This document shows positions 2,933-54,125 of a DNA stretch of 64,000 nt, piece by piece. Location of the stretch: contig NZ_CP034726.1 of the NCBI RefSeq assembly GCF_004359375.1, positions 868,001 through 932,000 on the forward strand, given 5' to 3'. The notes beneath the pieces were generated by a model that was not told the DNA's origin, did not search any database, and saw only the letters and a list, made by a program, of their open reading frames with translations. Position 1 is the first letter of the stretch. Every line of letters starts with the position of its first letter. Source of the stretch: Acetilactobacillus jinshanensis. Lineage in GTDB: Bacteria > Bacillota > Bacilli > Lactobacillales > Lactobacillaceae. The translations under genes were made by a program, and so were the position numbers.

Positions 2933-3044
2933 AGGGTCTTTAATCCTAGTCCTGTGAGGCTAGCAAGATACCAAATAATTTTGCAATGAAATCAATCATT
3001 AAAATTATGAGGGGTCTGCTTGCCTAAAAGTAAGTAGGCCTTTT
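2933..3044 (+). promoter_or_regulatory. PyrR-dependent transcription attenuator
   Basis: AGTCCTGTGAGGCT at 2948-2961 matches the PyrR-binding loop consensus ARUCCNGNGAGGYU exactly. It sits in a hairpin (2933-2972) closed by GGGTCTT and AAGATACC. The 3' arm of that hairpin (2966-2972) can instead pair with GGGGTCT (3011-3017), continued by ATAATTTT with AAAATTAT, which forms an antiterminator. That in turn excludes a terminator, GGTCTGCTT (3013-3021) with AAGTAGGCC (3032-3040) followed by TTTT. These are the three mutually exclusive structures of pyr attenuators: PyrR with UMP stabilises the first and transcription stops. Confidence 0.9.
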
Positions 3045-3104
3045 GAGTATCAGCACCCTTAAAATAACGAATGTCTGTGAGCATTCATTTTGGAGGTCTA
3101 CACA

Positions 3105-17999: not shown

Positions 18000-19382
18000 T
18001 TACTTCGTTACCTGTTTGTTATATTTAGCGTAGTAGATAATCGTCATAATGATTAAGAAGACGACACCTAACAGTAACGGAATCTGGGTATCAGGGTTTA
18101 AAGCCATAAAGATAACGGTCAATCCTAACATGATAAAGACGAAGTAATTACTGGTTGGTGAGAACGGCATCTTGAATGGATGTTTTTGAATAATTGCCGG
18201 ACTTTCTTGTTTTCTGAATTTCAGCTGGCTGACCAAAATTACGAACCACGGTACCATGCCAGGTAGAACACTTGAACTGTAAATCATAACGAAGACTTTG
18301 CTGCCATCGTTAAGAACCATTGGTAGAACGATGCTTAGAACGACACCTAATAACAGACCAATCGCAACGGCAAGAACCGCGATGTATGGAACACCGCGTC
18401 GGTTCAATTTAGCGAAGCTCTTCGGTAATTCGTGCTTCTTAGCTAGTGCGTAAGCCATGCGACTGATGTTATAGATTCCTGAATTACAACCTGAGAAGGC
18501 TGCGGTCAAAACAACAAAATTAATGATTCCGGCAGCCACTGTAATGCCTAACTTAACGAAAATTTCAACAAATGGCGAACCGATGGTCTTTAATTCGTTC
18601 CAAGGGTAAATACTGATGATTACGAAAATAGAACCAATGTAAAAGATTAAGATTCGATAAATGGTCGACTGAGTAGCTTTAATGATCGACCGCTTTGGGT
18701 TCTTAGCTTCACCAGCGGTCGTACCCATGAATTCAACGATGCCTTGATATGAAGCTAAAACGATCGCAAAGGCGAAGAAGAAACCTTTTACGCCGCCGGC
18801 AAAGAAGCCGTGGGTCCAAAGGTTACTGATGCCAGTGGGATGCATCCCGTTACCGAAGCCAAAGAGGATCACACCAAATCCAGCGATGATCATTAGAATA
18901 ATGGTGAAGACCTTAATAAACGAAAACCAGTATTCAAGAGTCCCGAATGATCTGACCGAAACTAGATTAATGCTTTCTAAGAAGACGATTGCGATTAAAC
19001 TTGGGATCCATTTCGGTAGGTTTGGCCACCAGAAACTGCAGTAGACACCCATGGCGACAACTTCACTCATGCCGACCATGACCCATTCGAAGATGTTACT
19101 CCAAGCTGACAGGTAACCGAATACCGGGTGCATATATTTAGTAGCAAAATCGGCAAATGATCCCGTGACGGGCTTGATGTATAACATTTCACCTAGAGCT
19201 CGCATAATCAGATACATAACGAGTCCAGCTATAGCATAGTCAATTAAAACTGAAGGTCCGGTCCAGTCAATCGTGGAAGCCGAGCCCATAAACAAACCAA
19301 CACCAATCGCTCCACCAAGGGCGATCATCTGAATTTTTCGCGGTGTTAACTCACGTTGAAGATGTCTAGCATGTCGAACCAT
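18000..19382 (-). CDS. Amino-acid permease (AAT family), probable serine uptake
   Basis: About 460 residues, twelve hydrophobic segments of the APC superfamily, AAT branch. N-terminal ALGGAIGVGLFMGSA substrate loop, and ASYQGIVEF with TTAGEA in segment 6, where one residue more is present than in the paralogue at 52650. Start is ATG 19382 behind AAAGGGG; TTG 19400 is less likely. Upstream on the same strand is a 32-codon leader peptide with six consecutive Ser codons and a set of alternative hairpins ending in a terminator. That suggests serine as the sensed amino acid and likely substrate. Confidence 0.9.
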   Translation of the reverse strand: MVRHARHLQRELTPRKIQMIALGGAIGVGLFMGSASTIDWTGPSVLIDYAIAGLVMYLIMRALGEMLYIKPVTGSFADFATKYMHPVFGYLSAWSNIFEWVMVGMSEVVAMGVYCSFWWPNLPKWIPSLIAIVFLESINLVSVRSFGTLEYWFSFIKVFTIILMIIAGFGVILFGFGNGMHPTGISNLWTHGFFAGGVKGFFFAFAIVLASYQGIVEFMGTTAGEAKNPKRSIIKATQSTIYRILIFYIGSIFVIISIYPWNELKTIGSPFVEIFVKLGITVAAGIINFVVLTAAFSGCNSGIYNISRMAYALAKKHELPKSFAKLNRRGVPYIAVLAVAIGLLLGVVLSIVLPMVLNDGSKVFVMIYSSSVLPGMVPWFVILVSQLKFRKQESPAIIQKHPFKMPFSPTSNYFVFIMLGLTVIFMALNPDTQIPLLLGVVFLIIMTIIYYAKYNKQVTK

Positions 19383-19414
19383 AATTACAACCCCTTTCAA
19401 ATTAGATAACTAAA

Positions 19415-19557
19415 AAGCCACGCAAGTTTCTGAACCGCGTGGCTTAAATTTTTAATTTGATCAGGTTCGATTACTTGGCTCGTTAAGCTACGCAGTCCAG
19501 AATTATCCTCCTGCGTAGCTTAATAACAATCAATACGTTATTAATTATTCCCGCAGG
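19415..19557 (-). promoter_or_regulatory. Ribosome-mediated attenuator of the permease gene
   Basis: Read on the minus strand, five segments can pair alternately. Segment 1 is CCTGCGG (19551-19557), within the leader peptide. Segment 2 is AAGCTACGCAG (19511-19521) and the following GG. Segment 3 is CTGCGTAGCTT (19485-19495). Segment 4 is AAGCCACGCGG (19435-19445). Segment 5 is GCGTGGCTT (19415-19423), followed by T residues. 2:3 pairs over eleven bases, 3:4 over ten of eleven, and 4:5 makes the terminator. 1:2 is reinforced by TTAATAAC/GTTATTAA between them. This is the logic of the trp attenuator. Confidence 0.8.
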
Positions 19558-19643
19558 TTTTCAAAGCTAGAAGATGAAGAACTCGTGCTTTGAGAATCTG
19601 TGGAGGATGTTAGTAATAAATTGAACTGTCTAATTAATAACAT
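19545..19643 (-). CDS. Serine-rich leader peptide
   Basis: A 32-residue frame from ATG 19643. Ten of its residues are Ser, and six Ser codons stand in a row at 19566-19583 (AGT TCT TCA TCT TCT AGC). It ends FENLRE just before attenuator segment 2, with segment 1 inside its last codons. A weak purine-rich site lies upstream. Ribosome stalling on uncharged tRNA-Ser would leave segment 1 free and favour read-through into the permease. Confidence 0.75.
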   Translation of the reverse strand: MLLIRQFNLLLTSSTDSQSTSSSSSSFENLRE

Positions 19644-19893
19644 ATTGATTACATCTCTTTTCACAACCTAATATAGCATTATTAATTCTAATGTAAACTA
19701 TATTTTATAAATTAATTTATATTTTTAAGATAAGGTTTCTATATATGATAAGAGGATAATCCTACATTAGATAAATTTCGTTTGAATAATCTCCGACACC
19801 ATGAGCTTTATAATCTACATCGCATTATTAAAGGGGTACTATTCAAGTGGAAAGTAAATAATGGATATGTGTTTTGTTTAGGAGATGTGCCCC

Positions 19894-37271: not shown

Positions 37272-37311
37272 ATGACCATAAATTGTGGTATACTTTGTAA
37301 TGTAAATGTAA

Positions 37312-37625
37312 AAATCGAAGAGGTTGCGACTGACATTAGTAAGTTGACCGAGTCACCGTTATGATATTGAAGTTAACTAAAAGGGGACGTCGCCGAAGTG
37401 CTGTTATTGACGGTTAACAGTGTTCTGGGACGTAGCTTAATATGCTGCGGACTGTCACGGACCCACCCGTGGAGCGCTTTATTCAAACAAGAATCGAATC
37501 TCAGTTAGTAATTGGATTCCTTTATTTGACTAAGCGCCAGATAAAGGACTTTTTTCTTTATTCAGACTGTGATTCATCATGTGCCGCTAATCCTCTTCGA
37601 AATCTTAAGATTAGAGGTTTTTATT
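37312..37625 (+). promoter_or_regulatory. Lysine riboswitch (L-box) with terminator
   Basis: Conserved L-box blocks appear in order: AAGAGGTTGCGA, AGTAAGTTG, AAAGGGGACGTCGCCGAAG, TTCTGGGACGT, CGGACTGTCA and CCGTGGAGCGC, up to about 37485. Downstream a hairpin CCTCT-AATCT/AGATT-AGAGG (37592-37617) with TTTTT precedes the permease start, and its 3' arm AGAGG is also the ribosome binding site. High lysine should stop transcription and hide the site. An extended -10 TATACT at 37290 is the likely promoter. Confidence 0.92.
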
Positions 37626-48444: not shown

Positions 48445-48544
48445 ATTTGATTTTATGTTGATATTATCTTGATGTCATCATAAATCAGCACTATAATTGT
48501 TTATGAACTTAGAAATAACTAATTATAAGTAAGTAATAAAATGA

Positions 48545-48782
48545 TTAAAACCAGATAGTAGTTAAAGGGAACTTGCTTTAGCGAGCGCCACTAAAACCGA
48601 TGCGAAGGGCGTAACAAGCCTTTAACGAAGTTGCACTGGCTAGATCAATGGTTAGTGGAAGCTAATCGTCCGTCAATCGCGTTATGAATTAATTAAGAAA
48701 TTACGGTGCAACACGCACAATAAAAGGTGGAACCGCGGCGAAAGTCGTCCTTTGATTAAATTCAAAGGACGGCTTTTTTCGT
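48545..48782 (+). promoter_or_regulatory. T-box riboswitch 1, cysteine specifier
   Basis: Stem I is closed by CCAG/CTGG and GTTAAAGG/CCTTTAAC. Its internal loop has AGTA on one side and GAAGTTGCA on the other, where GAA is the loop-E partner and TGC (48632-48634) plus A sits in the specifier position: a Cys codon. The T-box proper AAAGGTGGAACCGCGG (48723-48738) has TGGA, whose A fits the U73 discriminator of tRNA-Cys. The terminator GTCGTCCTTTG/CAAAGGACGGC with TTTTTT ends at 48779. Uncharged tRNA-Cys should switch on the ABC transporter downstream. Confidence 0.88.
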
Positions 48783-48805
48783 TCTATGGGTTTCTTAATT
48801 AATTC

Positions 48806-48960
48806 AAAATGTTTTGGTTCGGCAACGTTAGTGAACGCTAACGGTTCGGTCGATCTCGTTATCGATCCAATCAAGTTACCGGTGTGCCTAGCACACAATT
48901 AAGGTGGGACCGCGGTTTATATGATCGTCCTTTGAATTAAATTTCAAAGGGCGTTTTTTC
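48806..48960 (+). promoter_or_regulatory. T-box 2, truncated (no Stem I)
   Basis: A second T-box AAGGTGGGACCGCGG (48901-48915) and terminator CGTCCTTTG/CAAAGGGCG with TTTTTT follow the first. The hairpin CGTTAG/CTAACG and the GTGTGC/GCACAC stem resemble the second half of T-box 1, so it looks like a partial tandem duplication. Only about 40 bases separate it from terminator 1, too few for a Stem I, so there is no specifier of its own. Its bulge is TGGG, not TGGA. Confidence 0.8.
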
Positions 48961-52409: not shown

Positions 52410-52559
52410 ATGTATGAATTACATGAAAACATTGAATTAGAACTTAAAAGCACTCCCGTTTACGTACCGCAAACGACTAGAATGCTCAACACCAAGCAGG
52501 TTCGTTTCTTAACCAGAAAGAGCTTTCCACTTGGCAAGCATAGTCATGTTGTCCTATAA
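52410..52559 (+). CDS. Small ORF in the leader of the second permease
   Basis: 49 residues from ATG 52410 behind GGGAGATG. Soluble, with a basic C-terminal half ending GKHSHVVL. It is followed by a terminator and then the permease, with no promoter between. Upstream bases 52260-52400 fold into several hairpins (CTTGATA/TATCAAG; GTCCTT/AAGGAC; ACCC..ACAGTGGGT). It may be a leader peptide or a small gene in its own right; no amino acid run points to one sensed residue. Confidence 0.5.
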   Translation: MYELHENIELELKSTPVYVPQTTRMLNTKQVRFLTRKSFPLGKHSHVVL

Positions 52560-52587
52560 AACAATCAAATATTTTATCTGAGGGAGG

Positions 52588-52622
52588 GCTCTGCTGATTA
52601 GTTAATTAGTAGGGCTTTTCTT
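52588..52622 (+). terminator. Terminator within the permease leader
   Basis: GCTCTGCTGATTA pairs over thirteen positions (with wobbles) with TAATTAGTAGGGC, then TTTTC. It ends only 28 bases before the permease ATG, so the permease must be reached by read-through: a likely attenuator. Confidence 0.7.
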
Positions 52623-52649: not shown

Positions 52650-54125
52650 ATGCAAGCGTCACATGGCGGACCAAAAGTAAAGTTAAAGCGAACGCTAACG
52701 CCAGCTAAAATGCAGATGATCGCCTTAGGTGGTGCCATCGGTGTTGGACTGTTCATGGGTTCAGCATCCACCATTCAGTGGACCGGTCCATCAGTCTTAC
52801 TGGACTACGCAATTGCCGGATTTGTTATCTATCTGGTTATGCGAGCCCTAGGTGAAATGCTGTATGTTCACCCGGTTACTGGTTCGTTCGCCGACTTTGC
52901 CAATTATTATATGCACCCGATTTTCGGGTATCTCACCGCCTGGAGTAATATCTTTGAGTGGATTATCACCGGTACCAGTGAAGTCATTGCGATGGGTACA
53001 TATTGTCATTACTGGTGGCCTAGTTTACCGCGTTGGGTACCAGGATTAATTGCCATCGTGTTCCTATGCAGTGTCAACATGATTTCTGTTAAGTCATATG
53101 GTAACTTCGAATACTGGTTCTCAATGATTAAAGTTGTCACCATTATCCTGATGATTATTGCCGGACTCGGTGTCATCATCTTTGGTTTTGGTAACGGCAT
53201 GCATCCCGTTGGTGTTAGTAACCTTTGGTCACACGGCTTCTTTGGTCATGGCTTGAAAGGCTTCCTATTTGCCTTTGCGGTTGTCATTGCTTCATACCAA
53301 GGTGTTGAATTCATCGGGATTACCGCCGGTGAAGCTGAAGACCCGCAGCATTCGATTGTGAAAGCCGTTCAGTCGACCATTTGGCGAATCATGATCTTTT
53401 ACGTTGGTTCCATTTTCGTAATTGTCAGTATCTTTCCGTGGAATCAGTTGGATGCTCAACAATCACCGTTCGTTGAAACCTTCTCAAAGATTGGGATTAC
53501 GATTGCTGCCGGTGTCATTAACTTCGTTGTTTTAACTGCTGCATTATCTGGTTGTAACTCCGGGATTTACAGTACCAGTCGAATGACCTTTAACTTAGCT
53601 AGTAAGCATGAATTACCGAAAAGCTTCACGAAGATCAACCATAACGGGGTACCGTACATTGCCGTACTTGCCGTTTCGATCGGGATCTTCCTAGGACTAG
53701 TATTGAACATTATCTTGCCGTTCTTCATCAAGAGCAGTGGCAAGATCTTCGTCATGGTTTACAGTGCCGGGATTCTGCCAGGCATGGTCCCTTGGATCGT
53801 CATTCTGATTAGTCAGATGCGGTTCAGAAAGATTGAACCTCAGTCATTACATAATCATCCGTTCAAGATGCCGTGGTCACCATTCAGTAACTATGGTGCG
53901 TTAGCGATCCTGTTCGCAACCTTGATCGTGATGATGTTTAACCCTGATACTCAGATTCCGCTGTTGATCGGTGTCATCTTCTTAGCAACCTTTACGTTTA
54001 TCTACATCATCAGACATAATAAATGGCGCTTGATCAATAAAAAGTGGTTTATGAATCACTTTAAGTGGATGCACCTTAAGAAGAGTCACCATTACTCTAG
54101 AGACTACTTAAGATACCTAAGTTAG
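52650..54125 (+). CDS. Amino-acid permease (AAT family), paralogue of the 18000 permease
   Basis: 491 residues. ALGGAIGVGLFMGSA near the N-terminus and ASYQGVEFIGITAGEAEDP in segment 6; much of the sequence matches the serine-leader permease at 18000-19382. A basic C-terminal tail (residues 456-491) is extra. ATG behind AAGGGAGC. The segment-6 motif has the normal spacing, unlike the paralogue. Substrate unknown. Confidence 0.9.
   Translation: MQASHGGPKVKLKRTLTPAKMQMIALGGAIGVGLFMGSASTIQWTGPSVLLDYAIAGFVIYLVMRALGEMLYVHPVTGSFADFANYYMHPIFGYLTAWSNIFEWIITGTSEVIAMGTYCHYWWPSLPRWVPGLIAIVFLCSVNMISVKSYGNFEYWFSMIKVVTIILMIIAGLGVIIFGFGNGMHPVGVSNLWSHGFFGHGLKGFLFAFAVVIASYQGVEFIGITAGEAEDPQHSIVKAVQSTIWRIMIFYVGSIFVIVSIFPWNQLDAQQSPFVETFSKIGITIAAGVINFVVLTAALSGCNSGIYSTSRMTFNLASKHELPKSFTKINHNGVPYIAVLAVSIGIFLGLVLNIILPFFIKSSGKIFVMVYSAGILPGMVPWIVILISQMRFRKIEPQSLHNHPFKMPWSPFSNYGALAILFATLIVMMFNPDTQIPLLIGVIFLATFTFIYIIRHNKWRLINKKWFMNHFKWMHLKKSHHYSRDYLRYLS

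Follow-up and report, generated by a model that had tools for sequence, protein, structure and literature searches.

What controls the amino-acid permease gene in the window, as we call the whole stretch of 64,000 nucleotides of Acetilactobacillus jinshanensis DNA analysed here, and is the region upstream of this gene a switch? Amino-acid attenuators of the his, thr and trp type are textbook elements of Gram-negative biosynthetic operons, and in Firmicutes T-boxes usually do the job of attenuators. A first-pass annotation had read the upstream region as a trp-style attenuator with a serine-rich leader peptide. Our analysis indicates the anatomy of a well-built leader-peptide attenuator, most likely for serine and specific to this lineage. 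We consider it likely that the region is a ribosome-mediated transcription attenuator which senses charged serine tRNA, possibly that of threonine too, and regulates a Thr/Ser-type permease gene.

On the minus strand, a promoter-like site, a short leader ORF, a set of inverted repeats and the permease gene follow each other in this order. The following features were recorded, apart from the repeats:

19670–19697, minus strand: promoter-like site (TTTACA, 16 nt, TATATT preceded by TG; 10 of 12 consensus matches)
19545–19643, minus strand: leader ORF of 32 codons plus stop (ATG at 19643, TAA at 19545), with ten Ser and three Thr codons
19566–19583, minus strand: six consecutive Ser codons (AGT TCT TCA TCT TCT AGC, read from the sequence), the presumed stall site
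18000–19382, minus strand: amino-acid permease gene (Pfam AA_permease, 335.4 bits)

The peptide encoded by the leader ORF (19643–19545, minus strand) is MLLIRQFNLLLTSSTDSQSTSSSSSSFENLRE. The count of ten Ser in 32 residues with six Ser codons in a row, given in the first-pass annotation, was confirmed for this ORF. The three Thr codons occupy positions 12, 15 and 20, which gives a Ser to Thr proportion of ten to three, and the only uninterrupted codon run is that of Ser. Four codons of the run are of the TCN and two of the AGY type; for the whole leader, TCN accounts for 7 of the 10 Ser codons. Short ORFs with six adjacent Ser codons were found once in the window and in one of 60 dinucleotide shuffles of the whole window. 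As short ORFs with at least ten Ser appeared in 31 of the 60 shuffles, the odd feature of the leader is the six-Ser run and not its Ser total.

By eye, the Shine–Dalgarno sequence ahead of the leader ORF is weak. A longer ORF starting from GTG at 19664 was considered as well; the ATG at 19643 was preferred, since the GTG would sit at about the predicted start of the transcript. The promoter scan of the window returned nine sites compared with 10.0 expected in shuffles, and the site at 19697–19670 is the best of the nine. Because the number of sites is not above that of shuffles, this putative promoter is a consensus match only, judged by its match and its place. A search of the A. jinshanensis genome found no further copy of the leader.

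The RNA of the leader region contains the following segments with pairing potential:

19631–19651, minus strand: arm over the leader start codon, pairing with about 19547–19527 (inverted repeat, 95% over 20 nt; MFE structure)
19587–19604, minus strand: segment Z, pairing with 19567–19550 with the Ser run in the loop (MFE structure; −15.7 kcal/mol)
19536–19557, minus strand: segment A (1 in the first-pass annotation; A:B −16.3 kcal/mol)
19510–19528, minus strand: segment B (2), similar to the first arm of the terminator (B:C −23.8 kcal/mol)
19483–19502, minus strand: segment C (3), the antiterminator strand (C:D −22.6 kcal/mol; duplex z −3.9)
19428–19447, minus strand: segment D (4), first arm and loop of the terminator (from pairing energies and inverted repeats)
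19412–19428, minus strand: segment E (5), second arm of the terminator and U-tract (D:E −17.2 kcal/mol)

The 1:2, 2:3, 3:4 and 4:5 pairings proposed earlier, with the last as terminator, were all found, with energies from −16.3 to −23.8 kcal/mol. They join 19557–19536 with 19528–19510 (1:2), 19523–19511 with 19495–19483 (2:3, 100% of 13 nt) and 19502–19483 with 19447–19428 (3:4, 85% of 20 nt), and the terminator itself is formed by 19445–19433 and 19428–19415, followed by the U-tract (4:5). The hairpin of segment Z and the arm over the start codon come in addition to what the first-pass annotation had named. Three long overlapping inverted repeats lie in the leader region. Fold z-scores were −5.9 for the part after the ORF (19411–19544) and −6.8 for the whole leader (19411–19663), and in neither case was any of 200 shuffles as good. 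Features expected of a ribosome-mediated attenuator are present, namely a short leader ORF in which codons for a single amino acid adjoin each other and, between leader and gene, a terminator that competes with an antiterminator; parts and competing pairings are established and exceed chance. By the calculated energies, the leader is a balanced switch (−40.3 kcal/mol for A:B plus C:D compared with −41.8 kcal/mol for B:C plus D:E). B and D share a direct repeat of 11 nt (91%), and by eye C is similar to E, so that B:C looks like a copy of the terminator hairpin D:E.

A simple terminator scan of the window did not list 19445–19415, a hairpin with a bulged stem. The nearest recognized upstream gene, a member of the Usp family, is divergently oriented. 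As it points away, the terminator seems to serve the leader transcript only, and its assignment to another gene was rejected. In the antiterminator duplex test, the program chose for the window a longer hairpin (approximately 19465–19392), which encloses D:E. Rfam (4227 models, release 15) gave nothing at gathering score at the leader site, the top weak match having 25.1 bits against a required 59, and a T-box, a PyrR site or another known RNA at this position was rejected on these grounds.

The arrangement suggests the following mechanism. When serine is plentiful, the ribosome would traverse the Ser run to the stop codon and cover segment A; B would then pair with C, the terminator D:E would form and the permease gene would not be transcribed. 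When serine is scarce, a ribosome stalled in the Ser run would open the hairpin that held A; the freed A would pair with B, C would become available for D, and transcription would continue. In the absence of a ribosome, the Z:A, B:C and D:E hairpins would form and transcription would end. We infer that the leader ORF is translated, that ribosomes stall in it, that transcription terminates at D:E in the cell, and that serine is both the signal and the cargo.

For an analysis of ribosome position, we calculated the capture of the first arm of the terminator, i.e. the extent to which it pairs with upstream RNA while the second arm is still to be synthesized; the fold was restricted to RNA that the ribosome has not yet reached. 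Over the Ser run, capture had a mean of 0.75 and a maximum of 0.91, compared with 0.43 at the stop codon and 0.16 without ribosome. With the edge of the ribosome footprint at +14, capture was 0.76–0.91 at codons 21–25, 0.32 at codon 26 and 0.41–0.46 from there to the stop codon. The last codon with high capture was codon 26, 25 or 24 for edges at +11, +14 and +17, respectively, which is the end of the Ser run, and it is there that this one model places the switch point. The earlier proposal that a stall at the Ser codons frees segment 3 to block segment 4 holds in its direction according to this model, in which capture of the first arm ends at the end of the run. When the stretch from the Ser run to the terminator was shuffled 200 times, the stall value was matched 22 times, the difference between stall and stop 23 times and that between stall and no ribosome 4 times; both contrasts together were matched by none of the 200 shuffles. 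The control leaders of Escherichia coli gave 0.62 stalled, 0.04 at the stop codon and 0.30 without ribosome (trpL), 0.57, 0.54 and 0.03 (hisL), and 0.62 stalled and 0.42 without ribosome with the stop not defined (thrL). The capture test is imperfect, as it shows hisL without its stop effect.

Two further types of model were applied. When full-length RNA was folded at equilibrium, with only the part ahead of the ribosome included, the terminator prevailed at codons 21–26 and 31–33, and the antiterminator C:D gained at codons 27–30, most at codon 29. If all RNA is allowed to pair around the ribosome, D:E outweighs C:D everywhere (in this calculation the codons were read with a shift of one base). 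A home-made and noisy cotranscriptional model, with 33 of 34 simulations (all but that of the window without ribosome), predicted termination of 0.00–0.45 at four codons of the Ser run (two footprints) and of 0.18–0.23 at codon 32 and the stop codon; a coarser run of it, comprising 206 of 272 simulations, gave 0–0.51 in the Ser run, 0.14–0.45 at the stop codon and 0.91 without ribosome. Neither the cotranscriptional nor the full-length equilibrium model yields a clean stall/stop contrast for the window leader. For trpL, hisL and thrL of E. coli, the cotranscriptional model predicted termination of 1.0 at the stop codon and of less than 1 at seven of nine control codons. Among ten leaders of the Thr-rich kind described below, predicted termination was at or near 1 at most positions; a stall effect was clear in one of them (L108), while L139 and others had scattered dips. 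On balance, we regard the direction of the ribosome-position mechanism as supported, short of proof.

Which amino acid would be sensed? At codons 1–20, capture was 0.58–0.91 (edge +14), so that stalling need not occur in the Ser run itself but would suffice at any position up to its end. Serine sensing as originally proposed agrees with the drop in predicted capture at the end of the Ser run; less well accommodated are the three Thr codons and the capture caused by upstream stalls, so that serine as the only signal is the part of the proposal that did not stand firm. The same attenuator might answer to threonine and serine, with a number of stall sites of which the Ser run is the last and the strongest. 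We regard this as a tentative possibility, which overlaps with the best explanation. Ribosomes placed at Thr codons 12, 15 and 20 kept capture at 0.79–0.89 (edge +14), each of the 51 other leaders treated below contains both Thr and Ser, and the nearest protein family is that of the Thr/Ser carrier ThrP. On the other hand, Ser outnumbers Thr ten to three, the unbroken run consists of Ser only, and the predicted switch point coincides with the end of the Ser run and not with a Thr codon.

It is unlikely that the attenuator is real and has a different trigger, such as a protein, a metabolite or leader translation in general, with the Ser run being there by chance. Such a trigger would fit the cotranscriptional model, in which a ribosome at most positions reduces termination relative to none, as well as the high capture for most upstream codons and the occurrence of a six-Ser run somewhere in one of 60 window shuffles. 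However, capture drops exactly where the Ser run ends, no Rfam family reached gathering score (25.1 bits at best, compared with 59), and codon runs for Thr and Ser occur in the leaders of homologous permeases as well. We keep to an attenuator that is biased towards serine.

The first-pass annotation had proposed control of an uptake gene, and the product is indeed an amino-acid permease whose nearest NCBIfam model is ThrP (Thr/Ser); its score of 567.9 bits lies below the cut-off of 850, which leaves the exact family assignment short of the threshold. YifK of E. coli, a member of the ThrP family, is described as carrying threonine and, to a lesser extent, serine (PMC10070963). The A. jinshanensis genome (1,616,430 bases, one contig) had no match to the models of serC and thrC, which matched 11 of 14 and 14 of 14 control genomes, respectively. 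Given that neither gene was matched, uptake should matter to A. jinshanensis, which probably depends on it for serine and threonine.

For a comparison with relatives, 145 upstream regions were assembled from protein searches in two sets of 60 and 397 genomes (order and family), from named genomes and from two added sets. They belong mostly to ThrP-type permeases and in some cases to more distant permeases of the own genome; second permease copies in other genomes are included in part only. A detector that required a short ORF to have six or more Thr/Ser among nine codons near its stop responded to 55 of the 145 regions, compared with 6 of the 145 regions in reverse complement and 10 of 725 shuffled sequences. 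Three of the 55 matches (L033, L060 and L151) were removed as chance by judgement, and 52 leaders including that of the window remained. The other 51 (one place counted twice) come from seven genus codes of the family (g5, g6, g9, g14, g19, g23 and g25), with g6 being Limosilactobacillus-like (95% match to L043). All are located upstream of a permease gene:

L018, L019, L021–L023, L043–L049, L051, L099–L112, L115–L123, L126, L128, L130–L140, L145 and L147: regions with Thr-rich leaders

This Thr-leader family on a homologous gene in related genera is the wider and unexpected find. Ribosome-mediated attenuation had been called rare in lactobacilli; with Thr-rich leaders and terminators upstream of permease homologs from seven further genera, the codon-run type seems less rare in this family than was assumed. 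In 48 of the 51 leaders Thr exceeds Ser, whether the full peptide or its densest nine codons are counted; of the others, L112 and L115 have a tie in the densest stretch, and L140 has five Ser and four Thr. Both amino acids occur in all 51, and the longest Ser run is two. A hairpin with a T-tract lies between leader and gene in 52 of 52 cases including the window, a count without control rate, and the antiterminator duplex had a mean z of −3.2 across the 52 leaders, with 39 of them below −2. A strict DNA pattern of the Thr-leader segments matched 22 of the 397 genomes, compared with none for the reversed pattern used as a control, and in 19 of these 22 cases the match is inside a Thr-rich leader. 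L077, L078 and L080 (g14) carry the Thr-leader DNA pattern without an apparent Thr-rich leader. Rfam gave no gathering-score match on the three Thr leaders searched (L018, L022 and L043).

The capture test was also applied to 50 of these leaders, L122 being left out as a duplicate of L021. Where the stop value was defined (47 leaders), the stall maximum was higher in every case, and it exceeded the value calculated in the absence of a ribosome in 44 of the 50. Mean capture was 0.47 without ribosome and 0.52 stalled, and an untranslated Thr leader is therefore not predicted to be off. Covariation of the segments in relatives, which had been suggested as a check, was seen for part of the material. 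In the terminator of nine leaders from g19 and g9, two-sided changes affected 8 of 21 pairs, and 5 of 189 cells were unpaired; in 17 Limosilactobacillus-type leaders (two of them, L106 and L108, truncated at an internal T-run), it was 0 of 13 pairs. Among the pairs predicted in the 5′ part of the Thr leaders, two-sided changes were found for 0 of 9, 0 of 11 and 1 of 10, so that 1:2 and 2:3 hardly vary and say little either way. A third group (eight rows, with L019 dropped for having no end pattern) gave no terminator consensus.

Does the window leader descend from this family? It has the gene family, the combination of leader, terminator and antiterminator and the mixture of Thr and Ser in common with the Lactobacillaceae Thr leaders. 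The Thr-rich run with ACCUCAACCAC and GGUUGAG segments that marks the family is not found in it, and the antiterminator strand, which in the Thr leaders usually reads GGUUGAG or GGUUGGG and is close to the stop codon, lies 41 nt past the stop codon in the window. A search of the A. jinshanensis genome for the DNA pattern conserved among Thr leaders gave no match. A quick tree was calculated for 78 permeases (L067 and L124 left out because of odd letters; every third of L052–L076 used). The 38 rows with Thr leaders fell into one branch of 46 rows, and the leader label required at least five changes compared with 26.4 in shuffles. The window permease lies outside this clade: together with its three close paralogs it belongs to another branch, comprising 18 rows, in which it is the only one that has a leader. 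The window, L031 and L032 are the starred trio of this tree, in which several end branches are long, that of the window measuring 0.39. A comparable leader was absent from the closest permeases examined and from the three close paralogs of the own genome (the matches of L033 and L060 were judged chance). Because its permease branch is separate and without other leaders, we think it most likely that the window leader had an origin of its own, later than the gene duplication.

It is accordingly very improbable that the window leader is a member of the Thr-leader family whose Thr codons were replaced by Ser during descent. The same gene family, the same position and the mixed Thr/Ser composition would be explained by such a descent, but not the separate 18-row branch lacking another leader next to a Thr-leader branch of 46 (quick tree), the missing Thr-leader DNA pattern in the own genome and an antiterminator strand that is not around the stop codon but 41 nt beyond it. 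We give hardly any credence to the idea that there is no attenuator at all and that a chance ORF precedes a constitutive or leftover terminator, which would suit the weak Shine–Dalgarno sequence and the failure of the simple scan to list the hairpin, but conflicts with the fold z-score of −6.8, the three long overlapping inverted repeats and the position of the leader between promoter-like site and permease.

We read the window leader as an independently evolved, serine-biased (perhaps Ser plus Thr) ribosome-mediated attenuator. For the fuller history, we see the chances as even: a new serine attenuator would have formed in one lineage after a permease duplication, by copying of the terminator hairpin and gain of an ORF with Ser codons, separately from a threonine family in other Lactobacillaceae genera. 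Codon-run attenuators would then have been acquired by the same uptake gene on two or more occasions, for different amino acids, and a third lineage would control it by a T-box. The T-box in question precedes the ThrP-type permease L005 (genus g24) at 1212–1435, with 62.2 bits against a gathering score of 93 and an E value of 3.5e-13, and would put a homologous gene under a third kind of control. If true, a serine version on an uptake gene next to a threonine version in relatives would mean that codon-run attenuators arise repeatedly in lactobacilli and that they can be retuned between amino acids sharing one carrier.

Among known systems, the his, thr and trp leaders of E. coli resemble the window leader in having a short ORF with a codon run and mutually exclusive terminator and antiterminator. 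The his leader, with its six-segment relay logic, comes closest. Differences from the E. coli leaders are the serine codons, the uptake gene in place of a biosynthetic operon, the Gram-positive host and the position of the start codon inside a long stem. The window leader would share amino-acid-responsive antitermination with T-boxes; it is proposed to sense by the ribosome, and T-boxes by direct binding of tRNA.

Attenuators of his operons have been described in Firmicutes, and the groups named in the passage on them do not include Lactobacillales (PMC9413887). The first regular leader peptides in Firmicutes were reported upstream of hisS/hisZ in bacilli (PMC2965389), and ilv of Staphylococcus aureus has a Leu-rich leader (PMC5794164; predicted branched-chain leaders in Lactococcus and Streptococcus are cited there). 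Like the window leader, these published elements comprise leader peptide, terminator and antiterminator; as far as the excerpts of these sources go, they differ from it by His or branched-chain codons and by biosynthetic or synthetase genes downstream. A threonine T-box is reported on an APC gene in the Bacillus cereus group (PMC2494555). Serine starvation is sensed through SinR of Bacillus subtilis by slower ribosomes at Ser codons, TCN above all (PMC3862929); TCN also makes up 7 of the 10 Ser codons of the window leader. In contrast to the window leader, SinR sensing, as described in the excerpt, works at the level of protein output and involves neither leader nor hairpins. The cited portions of the Firmicutes leader, SinR and T-box papers contain neither a serine leader nor a leader peptide ahead of a permease gene in lactobacilli. 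The judgement that a serine version is not a standard described element was upheld, in that the literature matches listed include no description of it, nor of the threonine version in the relatives.

Matches to other regulatory RNAs were seen in the same genome. It has 26 T-box matches, four of them over the gathering score; two in tandem in the window (48537–48755 and 48805–48935, plus strand; 59.3 and 43.5 bits) are below it. The region upstream of a paralogous permease gene of the window (52683–54023) had no Rfam match at gathering score (52410–52620, L032). On its plus strand it contains a 49-residue ORF and what looks by eye like a terminator hairpin and its T-run. Over the gathering score are a PyrR binding site at 2933–3048 (plus strand, 57.8 bits) and a lysine riboswitch at 37310–37487 (plus strand, 94.5 bits) of the window.
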